Below, one piece after another: positions 11,321 through 19,877 of a stretch of DNA of 20,740 nt. The position numbers and the translations under genes were made by a program. Under the pieces are notes generated by a model. That model was not told the DNA's origin and ran no database searches. It worked only from the letters and a program-made list of their open reading frames with translations. Positions within the stretch are counted from its first letter, which is position 1. Each line of letters begins with the position of its first letter. The stretch is taken from IMG/VR virus record IMGVR_UViG_3300045999_004609, positions 1 through 20,740 of that record; one strand, given 5' to 3'. The stretch is from a virus.

Positions 11321-13942
11321 ATGGCTGATTACGCAATTTCCAACGTGCCCCGCAGGGTTGTTTATGCCGCCTCTGGTGTCGGCCCTTATGCGTTCACGTT
11401 TGAGATCCTGGTCAACACAGACGTGGCCGTCTACAAGGACGATGCGCTGCTGACGTTGACCACGGACTACACCGTGACCATTGCGGCCAACGGCACCGGC
11501 TCGATCACGCTGGTGGCCACGCCGACCGGCGCGACCCAGATCGCCATCGTCGGCTCGCGTGCCATTCAGCGCACCAGCGACTTCGTGACCGGCGGCGACT
11601 TCTTCGCCAACACCGTCAACGACGAGCTGGACAGCCTGACCATCTTTGCCCAGCAGAACGCCGAGGCTGCTGGTCGCGCCCTGCGTGCCCCGCAGACGGA
11701 CCCGACCAACATCGACATGACGCTGCCACGCGCAAGCGTGCGGGCCAACAAGACGCTGGCGTTTGACTCAAACGGTGACCCCACCACAGGCGAAGTGATC
11801 GGTGACAACCGTGGCAACTGGGCCTCTGGCACTGCGTACAACAAGCGCGACATCGTCAAGGACACCAGCAACGGCAACGTCTACTACGCCAACACCTCGC
11901 ACACATCGAGCGGCTCGCAGCCGATCTCGAGCAACGCTGACAGCGCCAAGTGGGACTTGCTGGTGGACAACGCCAGCGCTGGCGCATCGGCGACTGCTGC
12001 CGCCGCGAGCGCTACGGCTGCTGCTGGCTCGGCCTCTGCCGCCAGCACATCGGCCACGAACGCCGCCTCAAGCGCGTCTGCGGCCTCGACCTCTGCGTCC
12101 GGTGCCGCGACCTCTGCGACCAACGCTGCCTCGTCTGCGACCGCCGCCGCTGGCTCTGCTACAACCGCCAGCACGCAGGCAACCAATGCAAGCAACAGCG
12201 CAACCGCTGCGGCCACATCGGCAACGAACGCGAGCAACAGCGCCAGCGCGGCCAGCACATCGGCAAGCAATGCGTCCAGCTCTGCGTCTGCTGCCAGCAC
12301 AAGCGCAAGCAACGCCAGCACATCGGCCACCAACGCTGCGAACAGCGCGACCAGCGCCAGCTCTTCGGCTTCGACTGCGACGACCCAGGCGACCAACGCA
12401 GCCTCAAGCGCAACAGCTGCTGCAGGCAGCGCAACGGCTGCAGCTGGGTCTGCCACCACGGCAAGCACACAAGCCACCAACGCATCCAGCTCTGCGACCG
12501 CCGCTGCCGCATCGGCTGCTGCCGCTGCCGCATCGCTGGACAGCTTTGATGACCGCTACCTCGGCCCGAAGTCTTCTGACCCGACTGTCGACAATGACGG
12601 CAACGCGCTGGTGACTGGTGCGCTGTACTACAACACCACCTCGCAGACCATGAAGGTCTATGACGGCGCGACCTGGATCACAGCGACAGCCGCTGGCACC
12701 ACCGCGATGTCGCGCTACCGCTATGTGGCCACTGCTGGCCAGACCACATTCAGCGGCGCTGACGCCAGCAGCCTGACTCTGAGCTACACCAGCGGCAACA
12801 TCGTGGTGAACCGCAACGGCTCCACGCTGGACACCGCTGAGTACACCGCAAGCAACGGCACAAGCGTGGTGCTGGCTGTCGCTGCCGGTGTCGGTGATGT
12901 CATCGACATCGTGGCGTTCAAATCATTCACCGTGGCCGACACATACAGCATCGCTGGCGCTGATGCTCAGTTCTTGACCAAGGCCAACCCGTCTTACACC
13001 GGCACCCTCACAGGCGGCACAGGTGTCGTCAACTTAGGCTCTGGGCAGTTCTACAAGGATGCCAGCGGCAACGTGGGTATTGGGACTGCGTCACCATCGT
13101 ATAAGGTTGACGCTGTAACTGGCGCTTTAGGCACTACGGCGGGTAATCAGCAATCCATCTATCGCGGAACCACCAGCACCGGAAACACTGACGCTTACGA
13201 AGTTTTGTATGACCGCACAAGCAGCGCGTCTGGATGGACAGCTGCCGATCTTGTTATTCGTAGAAACGTAGATGGCTCTGCCGGTCAAAGTCAAATTCGT
13301 TTTGGCTCAGGAAACTTCACATCTTTTTGGACAAACAGCGCAGAACGCGCCCGTATCGACTCCAACGGTAACTTCAGAATCGGGACAACCGGGTACTCCG
13401 CATCAGACAACTCCCGGCTGTTTGTTTCAGGAACTGGCACAGGTCCTTGGGACAAACGAATTATTACTGTTGAGCATACCGGCGCAGATCAACCGGCTAT
13501 CGGGTTTCACGCCCCGTCAGCAATTTCAGCAGGGGTTTTTAAATACTATGGCCCAGGCGCAAGATTTGAGTGCAGATCAGGAGATGACACCACTTTTGTT
13601 TCAATCTCTGCCAGTGCGTTCAACGTATCTTCAGACTACCGCATCAAAACGGAAGTCACTGATTTCAGCAATGCACTGCAAAACGTCATTGCGCTGCGTC
13701 CTGTCAATTACAAGAAAGACGGAAGCAATGCGCGTGAATACGGCCTGATTGCGCATGAGGCAGCAGAGCATTTGCCTGACCTTGTGCGTGGTGAAAAAGA
13801 CGCAGTTCAAAGTGACGGAAACATGGAGCTTCAGACGATTGACTACATGGGCCTGACCGCTGTGCTGGTCAAAGCCATCCAAGAACAGCAAGCCATCATC
13901 ACCGCTTTGACCGCCCGAGTTGAAGCACTGGAAGGAAACTAA
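11321..13942 (+). CDS. Tail fibre with Ala/Ser/Thr shaft and S74 intramolecular chaperone domain
   Basis: The protein has 873 residues. AAGGA at 11309-11313, seven bases before the ATG, supports the start. Residues 1-150 resemble the T7 gp17 N-terminal head-binding domain (NVPRRVVYAASGVGPYAFTF, then a SRAIQRTSDF segment), which attaches the fibre to the tail. Residues about 217-405 are almost only Ala, Ser, Thr and Asn. A small domain with DSFDDRYLGPKSSDPTVDND and VTGALYYNTTSQTMKVYDGA follows, then beta-rich receptor-binding segments with a GIGTASPSYKV motif. Residues about 770-873 are a Peptidase_S74 chaperone, with SSDYRIK (Ser771-Asp772 at the expected self-cleavage point), ALRPVNYKKDG, YGLIAHEAAEHLPDLV and a final helix. 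This domain trimerises the fibre and then cuts itself off. The region after about 13050 is less GC-rich, as expected for an exchanged host-range domain. Confidence 0.9.
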   Translation: MADYAISNVPRRVVYAASGVGPYAFTFEILVNTDVAVYKDDALLTLTTDYTVTIAANGTGSITLVATPTGATQIAIVGSRAIQRTSDFVTGGDFFANTVNDELDSLTIFAQQNAEAAGRALRAPQTDPTNIDMTLPRASVRANKTLAFDSNGDPTTGEVIGDNRGNWASGTAYNKRDIVKDTSNGNVYYANTSHTSSGSQPISSNADSAKWDLLVDNASAGASATAAAASATAAAGSASAASTSATNAASSASAASTSASGAATSATNAASSATAAAGSATTASTQATNASNSATAAATSATNASNSASAASTSASNASSSASAASTSASNASTSATNAANSATSASSSASTATTQATNAASSATAAAGSATAAAGSATTASTQATNASSSATAAAASAAAAAASLDSFDDRYLGPKSSDPTVDNDGNALVTGALYYNTTSQTMKVYDGATWITATAAGTTAMSRYRYVATAGQTTFSGADASSLTLSYTSGNIVVNRNGSTLDTAEYTASNGTSVVLAVAAGVGDVIDIVAFKSFTVADTYSIAGADAQFLTKANPSYTGTLTGGTGVVNLGSGQFYKDASGNVGIGTASPSYKVDAVTGALGTTAGNQQSIYRGTTSTGNTDAYEVLYDRTSSASGWTAADLVIRRNVDGSAGQSQIRFGSGNFTSFWTNSAERARIDSNGNFRIGTTGYSASDNSRLFVSGTGTGPWDKRIITVEHTGADQPAIGFHAPSAISAGVFKYYGPGARFECRSGDDTTFVSISASAFNVSSDYRIKTEVTDFSNALQNVIALRPVNYKKDGSNAREYGLIAHEAAEHLPDLVRGEKDAVQSDGNMELQTIDYMGLTAVLVKAIQEQQAIITALTARVEALEGN
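11965..12540 (+). repeat. Degenerate Ala/Ser/Thr codon repeat in the tail fibre
   Basis: About 190 codons of nearly pure Ala, Ser, Thr and Asn with repeating blocks such as gccagcacatcggc (near 12042, 12249 and 12313). The periodic ATNAS/SASAAST pattern is typical of phage fibre shafts. Such DNA can change length by recombination and will assemble poorly. Confidence 0.85.
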
Positions 13943-15229: not shown

Positions 15230-15460
15230 ATGGCAGAGCATGACATCACACACCGCGAGATCTACGACAGGCTTGTAAACCTCGAGACCAAGGTTGATCG
15301 CATAGAGACAAACACCAAGGATGTGGTCTCTGCGTTCAACGCTGCAGCTGGCGCGTTCACCGTCCTTGAGATGCTTGGCAAAGTCGCCAAGCCTCTCTTG
15401 TGGATTGGTGGGTGCGTCACAGCTGTCGGCATTCTCTGGCAGAACTATCGCGTGAAGTAG
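15230..15460 (+). CDS. XhlA-like small membrane protein, candidate lysis accessory
   Basis: The protein has 76 residues from the ATG at 15230. An in-frame TTG at 15224 is possible but poorly placed. Residues 4-32 form an amphipathic coiled coil (HREIYDRLVNLETKVDRIET), and residues about 53-71 form a single membrane span (AKPLLWIGGCVTAVGILW), followed by a short basic tail. This coiled-coil plus C-terminal span is the build of haemolysin XhlA-type proteins, which act with holins or at the membrane in several phages. It opens the lysis/envelope cassette that ends with the endolysin. Whether it is a holin, an antiholin or only membrane-associated is unknown. Confidence 0.65.
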   Translation: MAEHDITHREIYDRLVNLETKVDRIETNTKDVVSAFNAAAGAFTVLEMLGKVAKPLLWIGGCVTAVGILWQNYRVK

Positions 15461-15468
15461 GGGTCAGC

Positions 15469-15963
15469 ATGATCGACCCGTTTACGGCGCTCGCGGCAGT
15501 TACGTCTGCAGTCAACCTGGTCAAGAAGGCCGTCAAGACTGTCGATGACGTGCGCAGCCTCGGCCCTGTGCTGGGTAAATACTTCGACGCCAAGGCCGAT
15601 GCGGTCAAGGTGCTTGAGGAGGTCAACAAGGGCGGCTTCAAAGGCTCCAACATGGGCAAGGCCGTGGAGCTGGAGCTGGCCATTGAGAGCGCCCGCCAGT
15701 TTGAGGAACAGGTCAAAGGCTTGTTCTTCCCGAACAACATGGACGTGTGGGAAAAGATCGTCAACCGCCGCAAGCAGATGGACGAGGACGACAAGGCCCA
15801 GCGCCGCCGGGCAGCAGACGCAGCGAAGCAAGCCCTGAAGAAGCGCAAGGAAGACCTCGAGCTGTGGACTGCCATCACGCTGGCCACCATCGTCTTTGTA
15901 GTGCTGATGTGGATTGGCGTCGAGATCGTCTACTACTGCCGGGAGGTCAAATGTGGAAGCTGA
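15469..15963 (+). CDS. Tail-anchored coiled-coil membrane protein of unknown function
   Basis: The protein has 164 residues from the ATG at 15469. The frame is open further upstream, but AGGGG just before this ATG and the end of the preceding gene at 15460 favour it. The N-terminus (MIDPFTALAAVTSAVNLVKK) is weakly amphipathic. Residues 64-132 are charged and helical, with a very basic/acidic stretch (RRKQMDEDDKAQRRRAADAA, about 100-119). Residues 134-156 are one membrane span, followed by YYCREVKCGS. Positive charge before the span predicts a cytoplasmic N-terminus. Similar proteins recur in aquatic phages next to a small Cys-rich lipoprotein, as here. Its last 13 bp overlap the lipoprotein start. 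The topology does not match a normal inner-membrane spanin, which has an N-terminal span and a periplasmic coiled coil. No function is known to me. Confidence 0.75.
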   Translation: MIDPFTALAAVTSAVNLVKKAVKTVDDVRSLGPVLGKYFDAKADAVKVLEEVNKGGFKGSNMGKAVELELAIESARQFEEQVKGLFFPNNMDVWEKIVNRRKQMDEDDKAQRRRAADAAKQALKKRKEDLELWTAITLATIVFVVLMWIGVEIVYYCREVKCGS

Positions 15964-16163
15964 TCATCCCTGTGCTGCTGCTGGTGGGCTGCGATGAGCA
16001 GTACCGCTACTTCTGCCAAAACCCTGACAACTTCCAGAAGCTGCAGTGCCAGAAGCCCCGGTGCCAGTTCACGCAGACCTGCCCTGAGTACTTAGTCGCG
16101 CCCGTCTTGGAGAAGCAAATTGAACACACCAAACCAACCGACGAGCCAACGCCTGTCCGCTGA
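15951..16163 (+). CDS. Small cysteine-rich lipoprotein of the lysis/envelope cassette
   Basis: The protein has 70 residues. The ATG at 15951 is preceded by GGGAGG at 15941-15946, a strong ribosome site, and it overlaps the end of the coiled-coil gene. A signal sequence (MWKLIIPVLLLVG) ends in a lipobox L-V-G-C, with Cys14 as the predicted lipidated residue. The mature part is short, with four further Cys (22, 33, 38, 44) and QYRYFCQNPDNFQ and CPEYL motifs; the tail is Pro/Thr-rich. The Q-Y-R-Y-x-C-Q-x-P pattern recurs in lipoproteins of aquatic phages. Asp15 at position +2 would, by the E. coli rule, keep it in the inner membrane. An outer-membrane spanin role is the obvious alternative but is not clearly supported. 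Confidence 0.75.
   Translation: MWKLIIPVLLLVGCDEQYRYFCQNPDNFQKLQCQKPRCQFTQTCPEYLVAPVLEKQIEHTKPTDEPTPVR
16109..16112 (+). promoter_or_regulatory. Ribosome binding site that supports a TTG start
   Basis: GGAG, followed by AAGCAAA, lies seven bases before the TTG at 16120. No ATG or GTG occurs in that frame until within the first membrane span, so this site decides the start of the 99-residue membrane protein. Confidence 0.6.
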
Positions 16164-16419
16164 ACAACTCAAGGTCCGCATTTGGGCCTTTGTTGTCGTC
16201 GCGGTGACGCTGATGCTGACCTTCATTGTGTTCGCGCTGCTGTACTCGGTGACGTTCGTGACGCAGCCGATCAAGGCGATGGCACCGATTGACCAGGCAT
16301 ACACCAAGATGCTCAACGACATCGTGCTGCTGATCGTCGGCGGCATCGGCGGGATCATGGGCGAGCGTGCCATGAGTTCTTCCACCAAAGAGAAACCCGA
16401 AACAGAGGAGTCCAAATAA
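16120..16419 (+). CDS. Two-span membrane protein, candidate holin, TTG start
   Basis: The protein has 99 residues, starting at TTG 16120 with a good ribosome site (GGAG at 16109-16112). It begins 44 bp before the lipoprotein gene ends. The N-terminus is polar (TPNQPTSQRLSAEQLKVR). Span 1 is about residues 21-47 (IWAFVVVAVTLMLTFIVFAL), and a weaker glycine-rich span 2 is about 65-82 (MLNDIVLLIVGGIGGIMGE). The C-terminal tail is charged (KEKPETEESK). Two spans and polar ends with a charged tail match class II holins in size. The cassette also holds another holin candidate, so which one makes the lethal hole is open. The rare TTG start would keep its level low. The following gene overlaps its stop codon by one base (TAATG). 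Confidence 0.68.
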   Translation: MNTPNQPTSQRLSAEQLKVRIWAFVVVAVTLMLTFIVFALLYSVTFVTQPIKAMAPIDQAYTKMLNDIVLLIVGGIGGIMGERAMSSSTKEKPETEESK

Positions 16420-16898
16420 TGCTGCCCATTGTCGCTTCCATTGTGAGTGGCCTGATCTCCAACGGCCTGCCCAAACTGGCTGACGCCGTGATGGACAAGG
16501 GCGTCGAGTACGTCGAGGAGAAGACGGGCCTTAAGCTTAAGCCAGAGGGAGAGGCCACGCCAGAGGATTACGCCAGGCTCAAAGAGGCGGCGATGAAGCA
16601 TGAGGAGTTCTTGGTCGATGCCGAGATCAAGGACAGGGCCAACGCCCGCGACATGGCCAAGGCCGCGATGCAGTCCAGTGATCCCTTCGTGCGCCGCTTC
16701 ACCTACTACTTCATCACGGTGTGGTCGATCTTTGCGATGACCTACATCCCCCTGATTACCTTCAGCAACATCCCGACCGAAAACGTGCGCTTCGCTGACA
16801 CCATCCTGGGCTTCATGCTGGGCACGGTGATGGCGTCGATGTTCTCCTTCCTGCTCGGCTCGAGCTTTGGCAGTCGCCTGAAGGACGACAAGAAGTGA
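16419..16898 (+). CDS. Holin-like membrane protein (3TM/GTA-holin style)
   Basis: The protein has 159 residues. Its ATG overlaps the upstream stop codon (TAATG at 16417-16421). An N-terminal hydrophobic helix (MLPIVASIVSGLISNGLPKL) is followed by an amphipathic, charged middle (residues 40-92), and then two spans at about 94-114 (FTYYFITVWSIFAMTYIPLI) and 128-148 (TILGFMLGTVMASMFSFLLG). The tail is basic. The layout, including the phrase ARDMAKAAMQSSDPFVRRF just before the first strong span, is seen in the family of three-span phage and gene-transfer-agent holins. It lies directly before the endolysin, as a holin usually does, and is therefore the best holin candidate in the window. Lethal activity is not shown by sequence. 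Confidence 0.72.
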   Translation: MLPIVASIVSGLISNGLPKLADAVMDKGVEYVEEKTGLKLKPEGEATPEDYARLKEAAMKHEEFLVDAEIKDRANARDMAKAAMQSSDPFVRRFTYYFITVWSIFAMTYIPLITFSNIPTENVRFADTILGFMLGTVMASMFSFLLGSSFGSRLKDDKK

Positions 16899-17560
16899 AG
16901 CCGGGCATCGACCAGCTGATGGCTGCGGGCATCAAGCGCGAGGCGGCAGAGCGCTGGCTTCCCCATGTCCAAAATGCAATGGCACGTTTTGGTATAGAGA
17001 CCGAGCGCCAGGTCGCTGCATGGCTCGCGCAGACCGCGCATGAGTCTGGCGGGTACACCGCGCTGGTGGAGAACCTGAACTACTCAGCAGACACCATGGC
17101 CGTGGTCTGGCCCAAGCGCTTCGCTGAGTACGGTCCAGACGGCAAGGTCAAGAAGGACGCCAAGGGCAAGAGCATCCCCAACAGGTTCGCCCTGGCCCTG
17201 CACCGCAAGCCAGAGCTGCTGGCCAACGTGGTCTACAGCTCGCGCATGGGCAACGGCCCGGTCGAGTCTGGCGAGGGCTGGAAGTATCGGGGGCGCGGCC
17301 TCAAGCAGCTGACCGGCAAGGACAACTACACCCGGTGCGGCAAGGCGCTCGAGCTGGACCTGGTAGGCAACCCTGACCTGCTGCTGCAGCCAGAGGGCGC
17401 GGCGCTGTCTGCTGCCTGGTTCTGGGTGACCAACCAGTGCGGGCCGCTTGCTGATGCAGGTGACTTCGTTGGCCTGACCAAGAAGATTAACGGCGGCACC
17501 ATCGGCCTGGAAGACCGACAGCGCCGCTACAAGGCCGTGCTGGCCTCACTGGGTTACTGA
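16895..17560 (+). CDS. Endolysin, glycoside hydrolase family 19
   Basis: This 221-residue protein would cleave the glycan backbone of peptidoglycan. The start is GTG at 16895, overlapping the holin-like gene's stop codon (GTGA). AGGA at 16882-16885 is the ribosome site. There is no signal peptide, so release would depend on a holin. GH19 features are AAWLAQTAHESGGYTALVEN, where Glu50 is the likely general acid and Glu59 a likely partner, NLNYSADTM, and EGWKYRGRGLKQLTGKDNY in the second half. The C-terminus, with INGGTIGLEDRQRRYKAVLA, is the usual end of these enzymes. The length matches single-domain phage GH19 endolysins, and no separate cell-wall-binding domain is apparent. The stop-codon end overlaps a convergent gene by 7 bp. 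Confidence 0.93.
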   Translation: MKPGIDQLMAAGIKREAAERWLPHVQNAMARFGIETERQVAAWLAQTAHESGGYTALVENLNYSADTMAVVWPKRFAEYGPDGKVKKDAKGKSIPNRFALALHRKPELLANVVYSSRMGNGPVESGEGWKYRGRGLKQLTGKDNYTRCGKALELDLVGNPDLLLQPEGAALSAAWFWVTNQCGPLADAGDFVGLTKKINGGTIGLEDRQRRYKAVLASLGY

Positions 17561-18639
17561 GCAGCGCCGAGCGCCGCCAGGCGCTTGCTGTAGGCCGCTG
17601 TGTGCCGCAGTCGCTTGACCGTGTCCACCCGGTGCAGCGTGTCACCGTTCACCTCCTTGAACTCTCGCAGGATGGTCATGCGCTCGCGTGCTGGCCGTCT
17701 GCCTGCCCTGGCGATCTTGTCGGCCATGTCCTCGTAGGCGTCCTGCCAATCGTCCAGGCTGGCATGCACGCTGGCCGGGTCATCTTTGCCAGGCACGAAC
17801 ACGGCGAAGCCATCGGTCACCGTCATGGTCTGGGCCACCGGTTCATCGTCTTCACCGGGCACGCGCTCTGGCATCTCGGCCACCGGCTCTGGCTGTTGCA
17901 CTTCCACCACAGCCTCTGTCACCTGCGCGACTTCCGGGATGTCCACCACTGCGGTGCCAGGCATCACCACGGCGTCCAAGGTGTCGGCCATCAGGTCTTC
18001 GATCTGGGCACGGTCGCTGGTCACTTCGATGGCTGGCTTGGCCACCAGGTCGAGCGGGTTGCGCGGCTTCTCCTGCTTCACGGCTGGCGCTGGCGCATCG
18101 TCTTGCCCTGTGGTGTCCCAGGCTTCTTCGATGGTCAGCAGACCCTTGAGGACATCAGCGAACTGATCGCGCAACGCAAAGCCTCTGGCACGCATCTGCA
18201 GCATCCGCTTGGGGTATGCCTGCCACGGGCCACCCTTGCCCCACAGGCCAGCACGCTTGGCATCCTCGACGCTAAACCGAGCGATGACAGGCTTGCGGCC
18301 CTTGCGGTGGGCGATACACACAGCGACAGGGTTGACCGTCCCCTCGTTCTCCAAACACTCCTCGATGCCTTCGCACTGTGGGCTGGCCTGCACCAGCGCC
18401 ATCATTGCGTCACCGTACACGCTGGGCTTGCCGTTGATCACGGCGATGTTCTGCAGCGCCTGCATGGGGGCCAGGCCGATCTCTTGGCCCCACTGCACGC
18501 AGACCATGATGTCTTGGGGTTTACCCTGGTATTGCTTGGGCACCATGCTGCTGTCGGCCAGCATCTTGCTGAACTCCATGGCTTCGGTGATGGTGGCTGG
18601 GGCAAAGCCCTGGCGGTTAGTTACTGTAAGAGCTGACAT
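17554..18639 (-). CDS. RecT-family single-strand annealing protein with C-terminal extension
   Basis: The protein has 361 residues, starting from the ATG at 18639. The frame is open upstream, but GAGGAAG just before this ATG decides the start. Residues about 1-175 are a RecT-type core, with ATITEAMEFSKMLADSSMVP, YQGKPQDIMVCVQWGQEIGL, LQNIAVINGKPSVYGDAMMA and YPKRMLQMRARGFALRDQF. Proteins of this family coat single-stranded DNA and anneal it to complementary strands. A Pro/Val/Glu-rich linker (about 176-275) leads to an extra basic helical domain (about 276-361) containing SLDDWQDAYEDMADKIARAG and RERMTILREFKEVNGDTL. The extension may be specific to this phage group. The exonuclease of the same operon is the expected partner. 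The TAA end overlaps the endolysin stop-codon end. Confidence 0.92.
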   Translation of the reverse strand: MSALTVTNRQGFAPATITEAMEFSKMLADSSMVPKQYQGKPQDIMVCVQWGQEIGLAPMQALQNIAVINGKPSVYGDAMMALVQASPQCEGIEECLENEGTVNPVAVCIAHRKGRKPVIARFSVEDAKRAGLWGKGGPWQAYPKRMLQMRARGFALRDQFADVLKGLLTIEEAWDTTGQDDAPAPAVKQEKPRNPLDLVAKPAIEVTSDRAQIEDLMADTLDAVVMPGTAVVDIPEVAQVTEAVVEVQQPEPVAEMPERVPGEDDEPVAQTMTVTDGFAVFVPGKDDPASVHASLDDWQDAYEDMADKIARAGRRPARERMTILREFKEVNGDTLHRVDTVKRLRHTAAYSKRLAALGAAQ

Positions 18640-18808
18640 TGGTTTCTTCCTCTTCGATATACGCTTGCATGGTGGTGAAAATGAGCTGGGCCATGGCGTC
18701 GACAAACGCCTCGGCCTGCTCTTCGGTGGTGTCTGGGTGGGCGTTGAGCAGCGCGACGACCGCTGTCTCATACGCCGCCCTGATGGCGGGTCGGTCGGGC
18801 AGGTTCAC
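18617..18808 (-). CDS. Small acidic helical protein, unknown function (GTG start)
   Basis: This 63-residue product starts at GTG 18808, which overlaps the stop codon of the 39-residue membrane protein (GTGA), and a GGGGG stretch upstream serves as ribosome site. The frame continues further upstream, but only into DNA already used by other genes. The protein is helical and acidic (AAYETAVVALLNAHPDTTEE, then FVDAMAQLIFTTMQAYIEEE), with no membrane span and no motif I recognise. It ends 23 bp inside the annealing-protein gene, so the two may be translationally coupled. Its place between the nuclease and annealing genes suggests an accessory of replication or recombination, but that is inference only. 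Confidence 0.65.
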   Translation of the reverse strand: MNLPDRPAIRAAYETAVVALLNAHPDTTEEQAEAFVDAMAQLIFTTMQAYIEEEETNVSSYSN

Positions 18809-18924
18809 AGCAGCCCCCAACCGAACATGAAGACCTCGGTGAAGACGCGCATCACGAACCCGGTGATGACCAGGGAACCCCCGGCCAGCGAGACAATCAC
18901 AAGCCAGTCGAGCATGACTTTCAT
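18805..18924 (-). CDS. 39-residue single-span membrane protein
   Basis: The ATG at 18924 overlaps the nuclease stop codon (ATGA), and AAGGAG lies eight bases upstream of it. The TGA stop overlaps the next GTG. Both junctions therefore support this very short gene. The product (MKVMLDWLVIVSLAGGSLVI and so on) has one long hydrophobic helix at about residues 6-33 with a single basic residue near its end. It resembles no family I know. A membrane protein inside a recombination operon is unexpected. It could modulate the host membrane or superinfection. Confidence 0.65.
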   Translation of the reverse strand: MKVMLDWLVIVSLAGGSLVITGFVMRVFTEVFMFGWGLL

Positions 18925-19877
18925 GGCTGCAGCTCCTTGATCGAGAGGCTGGACTGCCTGATGCTGTAGGCTTCCTTGGCAGCAACCAATCGCTCCGATT
19001 GGGCTTTGTAGTTGCGCATGGGCCATGAGATCACGAAGCTGCCAGCGCGGCCCTTCTCGGCCTGGCCCAGCTGCTCCTTGATCAGCTTCTCGGCTTCCTC
19101 GATGCTGCCCTCGGCTGCGCGGATCGCTGCCTTGTTGGCCATGATTCCCTTGGCCAGATCGGCCACCGTGGGCGGCAGCTCGATCTCGTCCTTGATGGCG
19201 TTGGGGTAGATCCGATCCAGCTCTTTGCTGCTGGCCGGTGGGAACCAGTCGATGGCCCCGGTCTGGCGGTAGGTCTCGAGCCGGGTCTCGAAGTCCTGCA
19301 CCGCCTTGATGATCGCGCCCTGGGTCTCCTTGTGCGGGGCGAACAGGAACACGCGCAGCTCGATGCCCTGGTACAGCACGCAGACCGCGCCCCACTTGTG
19401 GCCAGTGACCAGCATCTGGCCTTGCAGCTGGATGGGTCCACGCGCCAGGTGCGGCACATCCTCTGGCATGGTCTTGGTCAGCTTGGCCTCGAGGACGCCT
19501 GGCCCGTTCAGCACGATGCTGTCCTGACCGACAACATAGATGCCCTTGCCGGGGTCTGTGGTGATCTCCTGCCCAAGCCCGAAGCCGATGCCGTCCAGAC
19601 TGCACTGCAGCGCAATGTCGCGGTGCTTGTATGGCTCGGTGATCTCGGTGTTGAAGTCCTCGATGCCCAGGCGCTGCGCTGCCTGCTGCAGGATCACCGG
19701 CTCGAGGGTGTTGCCCCAGGCCATGGCCTCGTTGCCAATGTCTGGGCGCTCCTTGCCGTCGATGGCGTTGATGCTGAACTGCAGCTCGTCATTGGGCGTG
19801 CTGTACCTGCTGAAGCCCATGAGGCCAGGCAGGCGCGAGGCAGACATCTCGCGGTCATCAGTGAGTTTTCCGGCCAT
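18921..19877 (-). CDS. YqaJ/lambda exonuclease-family DNA nuclease (PD-(D/E)XK)
   Basis: The protein has 318 residues. AAAGGAG, about six bases before the ATG at 19877, is a near-perfect ribosome site. It would degrade one strand from double-strand DNA ends and leave single strands for the annealing protein. Catalytic features appear in family order: SASRLPGLMGFSRYSTPNDE (12-31), GNTLEP with Glu59, CSLDG with Asp95, GVLEAKL with Glu130 and Lys132 (the E-x-K of the PD-(D/E)XK fold), and PIQLQGQM with Gln150, 152 and 154, which matches the conserved Gln helix. The C-terminal third is a charged helical extension that could mediate oligomerisation or partner contact. Lambda Exo has 226 residues, so this is longer, as YqaJ-type phage nucleases often are. 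Confidence 0.93.
   Translation of the reverse strand: MAGKLTDDREMSASRLPGLMGFSRYSTPNDELQFSINAIDGKERPDIGNEAMAWGNTLEPVILQQAAQRLGIEDFNTEITEPYKHRDIALQCSLDGIGFGLGQEITTDPGKGIYVVGQDSIVLNGPGVLEAKLTKTMPEDVPHLARGPIQLQGQMLVTGHKWGAVCVLYQGIELRVFLFAPHKETQGAIIKAVQDFETRLETYRQTGAIDWFPPASSKELDRIYPNAIKDEIELPPTVADLAKGIMANKAAIRAAEGSIEEAEKLIKEQLGQAEKGRAGSFVISWPMRNYKAQSERLVAAKEAYSIRQSSLSIKELQP

Follow-up and report, generated by a model that had tools for sequence, protein, structure and literature searches.

A Four-Cysteine Lipoprotein and Its Two-Span Membrane Partner in the Lysis Cassettes of Uncultured Aquatic Phages

Introduction

Overlapping genes for a coiled-coil membrane protein (CC) and a small lipoprotein (LP) in a virus genome recall the Rz/Rz1 spanins, and raise the question of whether the two proteins form a spanin pair or whether the lipoprotein belongs to another membrane system. 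A preliminary description of the locus had treated CC and LP as a pair, had doubted that they were an ordinary spanin, and had suggested that a different membrane system was involved. The window analysed here is the whole 20,740-base stretch of one virus record, a linear fragment that carries structural and recombination-like genes.

Results

Gene Layout of the Locus

The lysis genes of the window were arranged as follows.

15230-15460, plus strand: small C-terminally anchored protein, with a weak match to the holin family phrog_689 (E 1.2e-4)
15469-15963, plus strand: CC, a helical protein with a C-terminal span (ATG start, 164 aa; phrog_32327, annotated "unknown function")
15951-16163, plus strand: LP, a four-Cys small lipoprotein with lipobox LVGC (ATG start, 70 aa)
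16120-16419, plus strand: TM2, a protein of about 99 aa with two membrane spans, predicted N-in/C-in (TTG start; phrog_25359, "unknown function")
16419-16898, plus strand: P0004, a probable multi-span holin-like protein with two C-terminal spans (phrog_1544, unknown function)
16895-17560, plus strand: canonical GH19-type endolysin without an N-terminal span (PF00182, E 8.9e-14; phrog_181)

The overlap of the CC and LP genes, as first described, was confirmed; the genes lie in different frames and share 13 nt. Both are real genes, because homologues were found in IMG/VR stretches (151 for CC and 477 for LP) and the differences from relatives were mostly synonymous, with 45 synonymous and 17 non-synonymous codon differences between CC and its counterpart in L012, and 12 and 8, respectively, between LP and a relative. 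The TTG start of TM2 sits where relatives have ATG, with a 44-nt overlap with LP in both; across the loci, the start/stop overlaps of LP and TM2 were mostly 1-8 nt. On the minus strand, at 17554-19877, genes for a RecT-like protein and a YqaJ-type exonuclease, identified by eye, adjoin the lysis genes. A tail-fibre-like protein with a long repetitive Ala/Ser/Thr-rich stretch (SAT/ASS repeats) is encoded at 11321-13942.

Pairing and Co-Inheritance of LP and TM2

Loci were collected through seeded scans of IMG/VR, from which 80 of the 151 CC relatives and 80 of the 477 LP relatives were kept. Further loci came from a diverse LP alignment (80) and from genome contigs (8), some of them chance matches. 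The sequences are mostly metagenome contigs, often incomplete, and the gene, span and Rz/Rz1 calls were rule-based. A match in Pantoea phage Phynn (H10/L168) was rejected as an antisense chance match; L165 was discarded as a chance match within a bacterial gene, and L166 was discarded because its module is disrupted.

There were 121 dereplicated LP clusters, 116 of which had enough sequence to score TM2. Among the matches listed, TM2 directly followed LP in 113 of these 116 loci, and no TM2 locus without LP was found among the CC/LP-seeded loci listed. As this first set had been chosen by CC and LP, a search by TM2 alone was added. LP lay just upstream in 129 of the 130 dereplicated loci found in this way (among the matches listed), and the sole exception, L308, also carries the LP module.

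A survey of CC/LP co-occurrence, proposed in the preliminary description, gave a divided answer. Among the matches listed, CC was located upstream of LP in 86 of 110 dereplicated LP clusters; it was upstream in 60 of the 117 clusters found by the TM2 search, and 43 CC loci had no LP. The CC frequencies vary with the query because the first LP clusters came from CC or LP queries. CC is thus a frequent, not an obligate, neighbour, and is exchangeable relative to LP-TM2.

The pairwise identities of LP correlated more closely with those of TM2 (r = 0.87) than with those of CC (r = 0.65; bootstrap difference 0.105 to 0.371). For the 36 loci in which a GH19 endolysin gene was present as well, the correlations were 0.93 for LP-TM2, 0.15 for LP-CC and 0.57 for LP-endolysin. 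A pair of loci was scored as discordant when one protein was more than 85% identical and the other less than 50%. Within the same 36 loci, no LP-TM2 pair was discordant (0/630), compared with 289/630 for LP-CC and 56/630 for LP-endolysin; the locus pairs are not independent, so these counts should be read as a pattern, not as numbers of events.

A sister contig, L002, shows the exchange directly. Relative to the window, its CC is 98% identical, its LP 41% and its TM2 28%. The DNA similarity of the two extends over 15469-16032, is lost over the remainder of LP and over TM2, and returns exactly at 16419, the end of TM2, so LP and TM2 were replaced together, as a unit. Physical linkage alone does not explain the contrast between LP-TM2 and LP-CC, because the CC and LP genes overlap likewise. 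We conclude with high confidence that the near-obligate partner of LP is TM2, and that the two are inherited together and independently of CC. The idea of CC and LP as the pair was therefore not borne out, while the proposal of a different membrane system was supported, with TM2, which had not been named, as the partner.

Conserved Features of LP and TM2

Besides the lipobox LVGC, followed by Asp at the +2 position, LP contains four other Cys, and its sequence marks it as an exported protein. The family shares the module YRYxCQ[DN]Px[NH][FW]..C..P.C..C, in which nine residues of the mature part (R19, Y20, C22, Q23, P25, C33, P36, C38 and C44) were invariant across 37 diverse members. The Cys spacing was constant in 119/120 and 124/126 clusters among the matches listed. 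Among the lipobox members listed, the +2 residue was E in 54, D in 27, S in 9, Q in 8, G in 8 and N in 7 of 117; in a largely independent set of 92 members, likewise among the matches listed, it was E in 46, S in 10, K in 8, Q in 7 and D in 6. The Asp to which the preliminary description had given weight, the mark of inner-membrane lipoproteins in E. coli, is present in the window LP, but it is not conserved in the family (27/117 and 6/92) and makes a weak argument.

No lipobox was recognised by pattern in 34 of 126 TM2-found loci among the matches listed. Some of these are pattern misses, such as L297 with LHGC. Most of the lipobox-negative LPs listed belong to one clade with a hydrophobic N-terminus, e.g., L368 (MNDKKLFKYLLFLLVLPIGLAIFGGDRFRYPCQDP), which suggests an inner-membrane location. 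LP had no PDB relative, and its model (mean pLDDT 70, moderate confidence) had no structural match. Nothing convincing was found in PHROG, and no family was assigned.

TM2 consists of two spans joined by a short loop, predicted to be external, with the motif FVTQPxxxxAPxD. The residues Y42, F46, V47, Q49, P50 and D58 are invariant, and the second span has conserved Gly-x3-Gly positions. The core is consistent with a class II holin (two spans, ~65-95 aa, N-in/C-in), as far as crude hydropathy calling goes and with some tails being long. No Pfam family or PDB relative was found for TM2, and its best match among the curated holin families was Phage_holin_3_6, under the cut-off at E 0.02. Weak Pfam matches to SLATT_fungal (E 2.7e-4) and ABC2_membrane were set aside as under the cut-off and scattered. 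No known holin or antiholin was found to be homologous to TM2 or LP. In L085 (6170-6697) and many relatives, TM2 has a long Pro-rich cytoplasmic tail that terminates in a conserved NPELDESWTPGPPPTTPPEH segment.

Topology of CC

CC has a single hydrophobic span near residue 128, and the basic residues AADAAKQALKKRKED precede it. In the AlphaFold2 model, CC is helical throughout, and one uninterrupted helix (91-160) passes through the span (mean pLDDT 71, moderate confidence). Because the span is C-terminal, with KKRKED before it and a tail of about 10 residues (YYCREVKCGS) after it, the N-terminal 130 residues most likely lie in the cytoplasm. CC is thus most likely a protein with a cytoplasmic N-terminus and a C-terminal anchor, in agreement with the first reading of the coil. 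An N-terminal span followed by a periplasmic C-terminal coil, the layout of a type II i-spanin, was not found in CC.

The CC tails contain either two Cys (YYCREVKCG, as in the window at 15931-15960) or none (MYGMKP, TYIRK, EATAQGK). Tail Cys were found in 19 of 55 loci with LP and in 10 of 15 loci without it. A disulfide between the CC tail and LP was not supported, as the tail Cys are at least as frequent where LP is lacking. In betaproteobacterial and related loci (L159 7070-7989, L160 7062-7999 and L173 5224-6086), CC is longer, and between CC and LP there is an extra overlapping protein that has a single span and a short coil.

Hosts and Distribution

Fifteen records, picked chiefly because their LP resembles the one in phage DSL-LC01, were compared with 15 other LP-TM2 records as controls. 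WhiB was above the cut-off in 9 of the 15 DSL-LC01-like records, with a tenth weakly matching, and in none of the 15 controls. WhiB is an accepted actinophage marker (PMC6802176; PMC10202952), and the predicted host of DSL-LC01 belongs to the Actinomycetia (PMC10611076). The WhiB-bearing LP-TM2 contigs are presumably actinophages, whose hosts would lack a Gram-negative outer membrane. Some Actinobacteria possess a mycomembrane. Some of the WhiB-bearing contigs have LP-TM2 without CC. Three of the WhiB-bearing contigs, L196, L208 and L226, have small membrane-span genes on one side of LP-TM2 and a CHAP-type endolysin on the other; the CHAP family match was checked for L208.

LP-TM2 is abundant in uncultured aquatic phages, with at least 600 matches in pattern scans. 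Among 50,697 GenBank phage records, it was found in only 4; each is an environmental genome for which the record indicates no isolate. No description of the pair was found in the part of the literature that was covered.

Spanins in LP Cassettes

A check for a conventional spanin had been recommended in the preliminary description. The window holds no Rz/Rz1-like pair, whereas 37 of 101 LP cassettes have one under the rule of an Rz-like gene with an overlapping Pro-rich lipoprotein gene. These pairs mostly lie 300-600 nt after LP, i.e., just past TM2. PHROG spanin families were matched in the examples checked, by the Rz of L085, L159 and L189 and the Rz1 of L082, L159 and L189. Members of the P0004 family were present in 22 of 101 LP cassettes, in none of which an Rz/Rz1-like pair was found. 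P0004 and the Rz/Rz1-like pairs are therefore alternative occupants of the slot that follows TM2 and precedes the endolysin.

An unconventional two-component spanin made of CC and LP would agree with the overlapping genes, with the combination of a lipoprotein and a coiled-coil membrane protein in a lysis cassette, with the lack of an Rz/Rz1-like pair in the window, and with the other topologies left open by the spanin survey (PMC6139136). This reading is nevertheless highly improbable. The lipoprotein and the membrane component of a spanin should be co-inherited, and LP is exchanged independently of CC and is absent from the 43 CC loci noted above. The tail Cys of CC are unlinked to LP, and the basic residues ahead of its span predict a cytoplasmic coil. 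A spanin would also be expected in a host with a Gram-negative outer membrane and in a cassette with no second spanin; LP cassettes also carry Rz/Rz1-like pairs, and WhiB-bearing contigs have LP-TM2 without CC. Because of these two observations, CC-LP is very probably not a spanin, and the doubt expressed at the outset about an ordinary Rz/Rz1 spanin was well placed. One of the reasons first given for it was less secure. The four extra Cys are present in LP in place of a Pro-rich domain, but they do not alone exclude an o-spanin: 35 of the o-spanins in the spanin survey contain four Cys, and a Pro-rich region is missing from the T4 type (PMC6139136). LP resembles the Rz/Rz1 spanins in being a lysis-cassette lipoprotein with periplasmic cysteines whose gene overlaps a neighbour; it differs in that its partner is TM2 rather than a type II coiled-coil protein, and in that LP-TM2 coexists with Rz/Rz1-like pairs and occurs in WhiB-bearing contigs.

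Endolysins and Holin Candidates

In 72 of 83 clusters, an endolysin domain was found within ~3 kb of LP-TM2, with five endolysin types represented. LP-TM2 was not found adjoining an endolysin gene in two large contigs, L220 and L240. In L240 (6476-9697), a WhiB-bearing contig, a 1073-aa secreted-looking protein with more spans near its C-terminus directly follows LP-TM2.

The GH19 endolysins had no hydrophobic N-terminal segment in 99/99 homologues and, as they are without such a span (no SAR segment), they need a holin. Across 29 Rz-type cassettes, the span calling gave a single multi-span ORF besides TM2, apparently a spurious one. TM2 is thus the obvious holin candidate in these cassettes; crude start calling gave it two spans in only 20 of the 29. 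A single-span holin like T of T4 may operate there, and CC or an XhlA-like gene could serve. Other candidates in the window and in some cassettes are P0004, a relative of which matches GTA_holin_3TM below the threshold, the XhlA-like gene and, in the WhiB-bearing contigs, the small span genes.

Discussion

The position of LP-TM2, its predicted topology and the elimination of other readings lead us to favour, tentatively and at close to even odds, a holin-type lysis module in which TM2 would be a pore-forming or gating hairpin and LP its external regulator. This preference is based on the proximity to endolysins, the need of the GH19 enzymes for a holin and the lack, in the Rz-type cassettes, of another multi-span ORF that looks genuine. 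Points against it are the absence of homology to known holins and antiholins, the other holin candidates in the window and in some cassettes, and the two large contigs in which no endolysin gene was found beside the pair.

The main rival is a superinfection-exclusion module, in which LP and the TM2 loop would block the entry of DNA from related phages late in infection. Exclusion systems are typically small membrane proteins and lipoproteins, which is what LP-TM2 comprises; T4 Imm/Sp and T5 Llp are exclusion systems that act by other means. T5 Llp is the subject of PMC9586334. The allelic replacement of LP-TM2 between close relatives would suit a determinant of exclusion or immunity specificity, and exclusion would also agree with the occurrence of the pair in both presumed Gram-negative phages and WhiB-bearing contigs. 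Nearly constant placement beside endolysin genes is against it, and a single tiny invariant module across very different hosts fits a conserved partner, TM2, better than a receptor or an injection machine. The sole match to an exclusion family, phrog_1119 (Cor), is limited to residues 1-28 of LP, the signal peptide. Homology to Cor was rejected, as the match does not reach the mature domain. LP is like Cor (phi80/N15) and T5 Llp in being a phage lipoprotein of ~70-80 aa, and is distinguished by its invariant Cys module and near-obligate membrane partner. On this balance we regard an exclusion function as unlikely.

A non-lytic accessory of the late envelope, such as a membrane-protection, virion or assembly factor, would be linked to lysis by operon position only. 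The lack of a catalytic or known domain in LP-TM2 would be in keeping with this, as would the two large contigs that carry the pair away from endolysin genes; chance operon position explains poorly the linkage to five endolysin types in diverse phages, and we consider such a role improbable to much the same degree as exclusion.

In the holin-type module that we prefer, the four-Cys module of LP, presumably disulfide-bonded, would be displayed at the external side of the cytoplasmic membrane, anchored by lipid or, in one clade, by the hydrophobic N-terminal segment. The external loop of TM2 (FVTQP..AP.D) is the likely docking site; contact between the two proteins is suggested by their co-inheritance. 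TM2 would form or gate the membrane lesion through which the cytoplasmic endolysin is released, and LP may set the timing by restraining or triggering TM2 from the external side, in the way that the T4 antiholin RI acts on the holin T from the periplasm. CC would be an optional accessory on the cytoplasmic side. There is precedent in T4, where periplasmic RI and cytoplasmic RIII act on T (PMC8385771). Like T/RI/RIII, the proposed module would control lysis through a membrane protein, a small exported protein at the outer face and, optionally, a further partner in the cytoplasm. The differences are that T crosses the membrane once and has a large periplasmic domain, that RI does not belong to the lipoproteins, and that neither LP nor TM2 has a detectable sequence relation to the T4 proteins. 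TM2 is also like the class II holins (phage 21 S type) in its short two-span hairpin with predicted N-in/C-in topology, the small-residue motif in its second span and its place adjoining the endolysin. Unlike TM2, these holins have no obligate lipoprotein partner; they also show no sequence match to it, and many TM2 proteins carry long Pro-rich cytoplasmic tails.

A more specific possibility, which we hold to be rather doubtful, is a lysis-control device of an undescribed kind. It would be a membrane switch of two proteins, with an external four-Cys sensor in obligate control of a two-span pore, perhaps sensing superinfection or the redox state at the cell surface. Phages of both Gram-negative and Gram-positive aquatic bacteria would share such a switch and exchange it as an allelic cassette.

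If LP-TM2 is a holin-type switch, it would account for the holin that is missing from many freshwater lysis cassettes, and would represent a lysis regulator active at the outer surface of the cytoplasmic membrane in cells of both types. In any event, a misleading spanin-like reading gives way to a precise and testable LP-TM2 pair.
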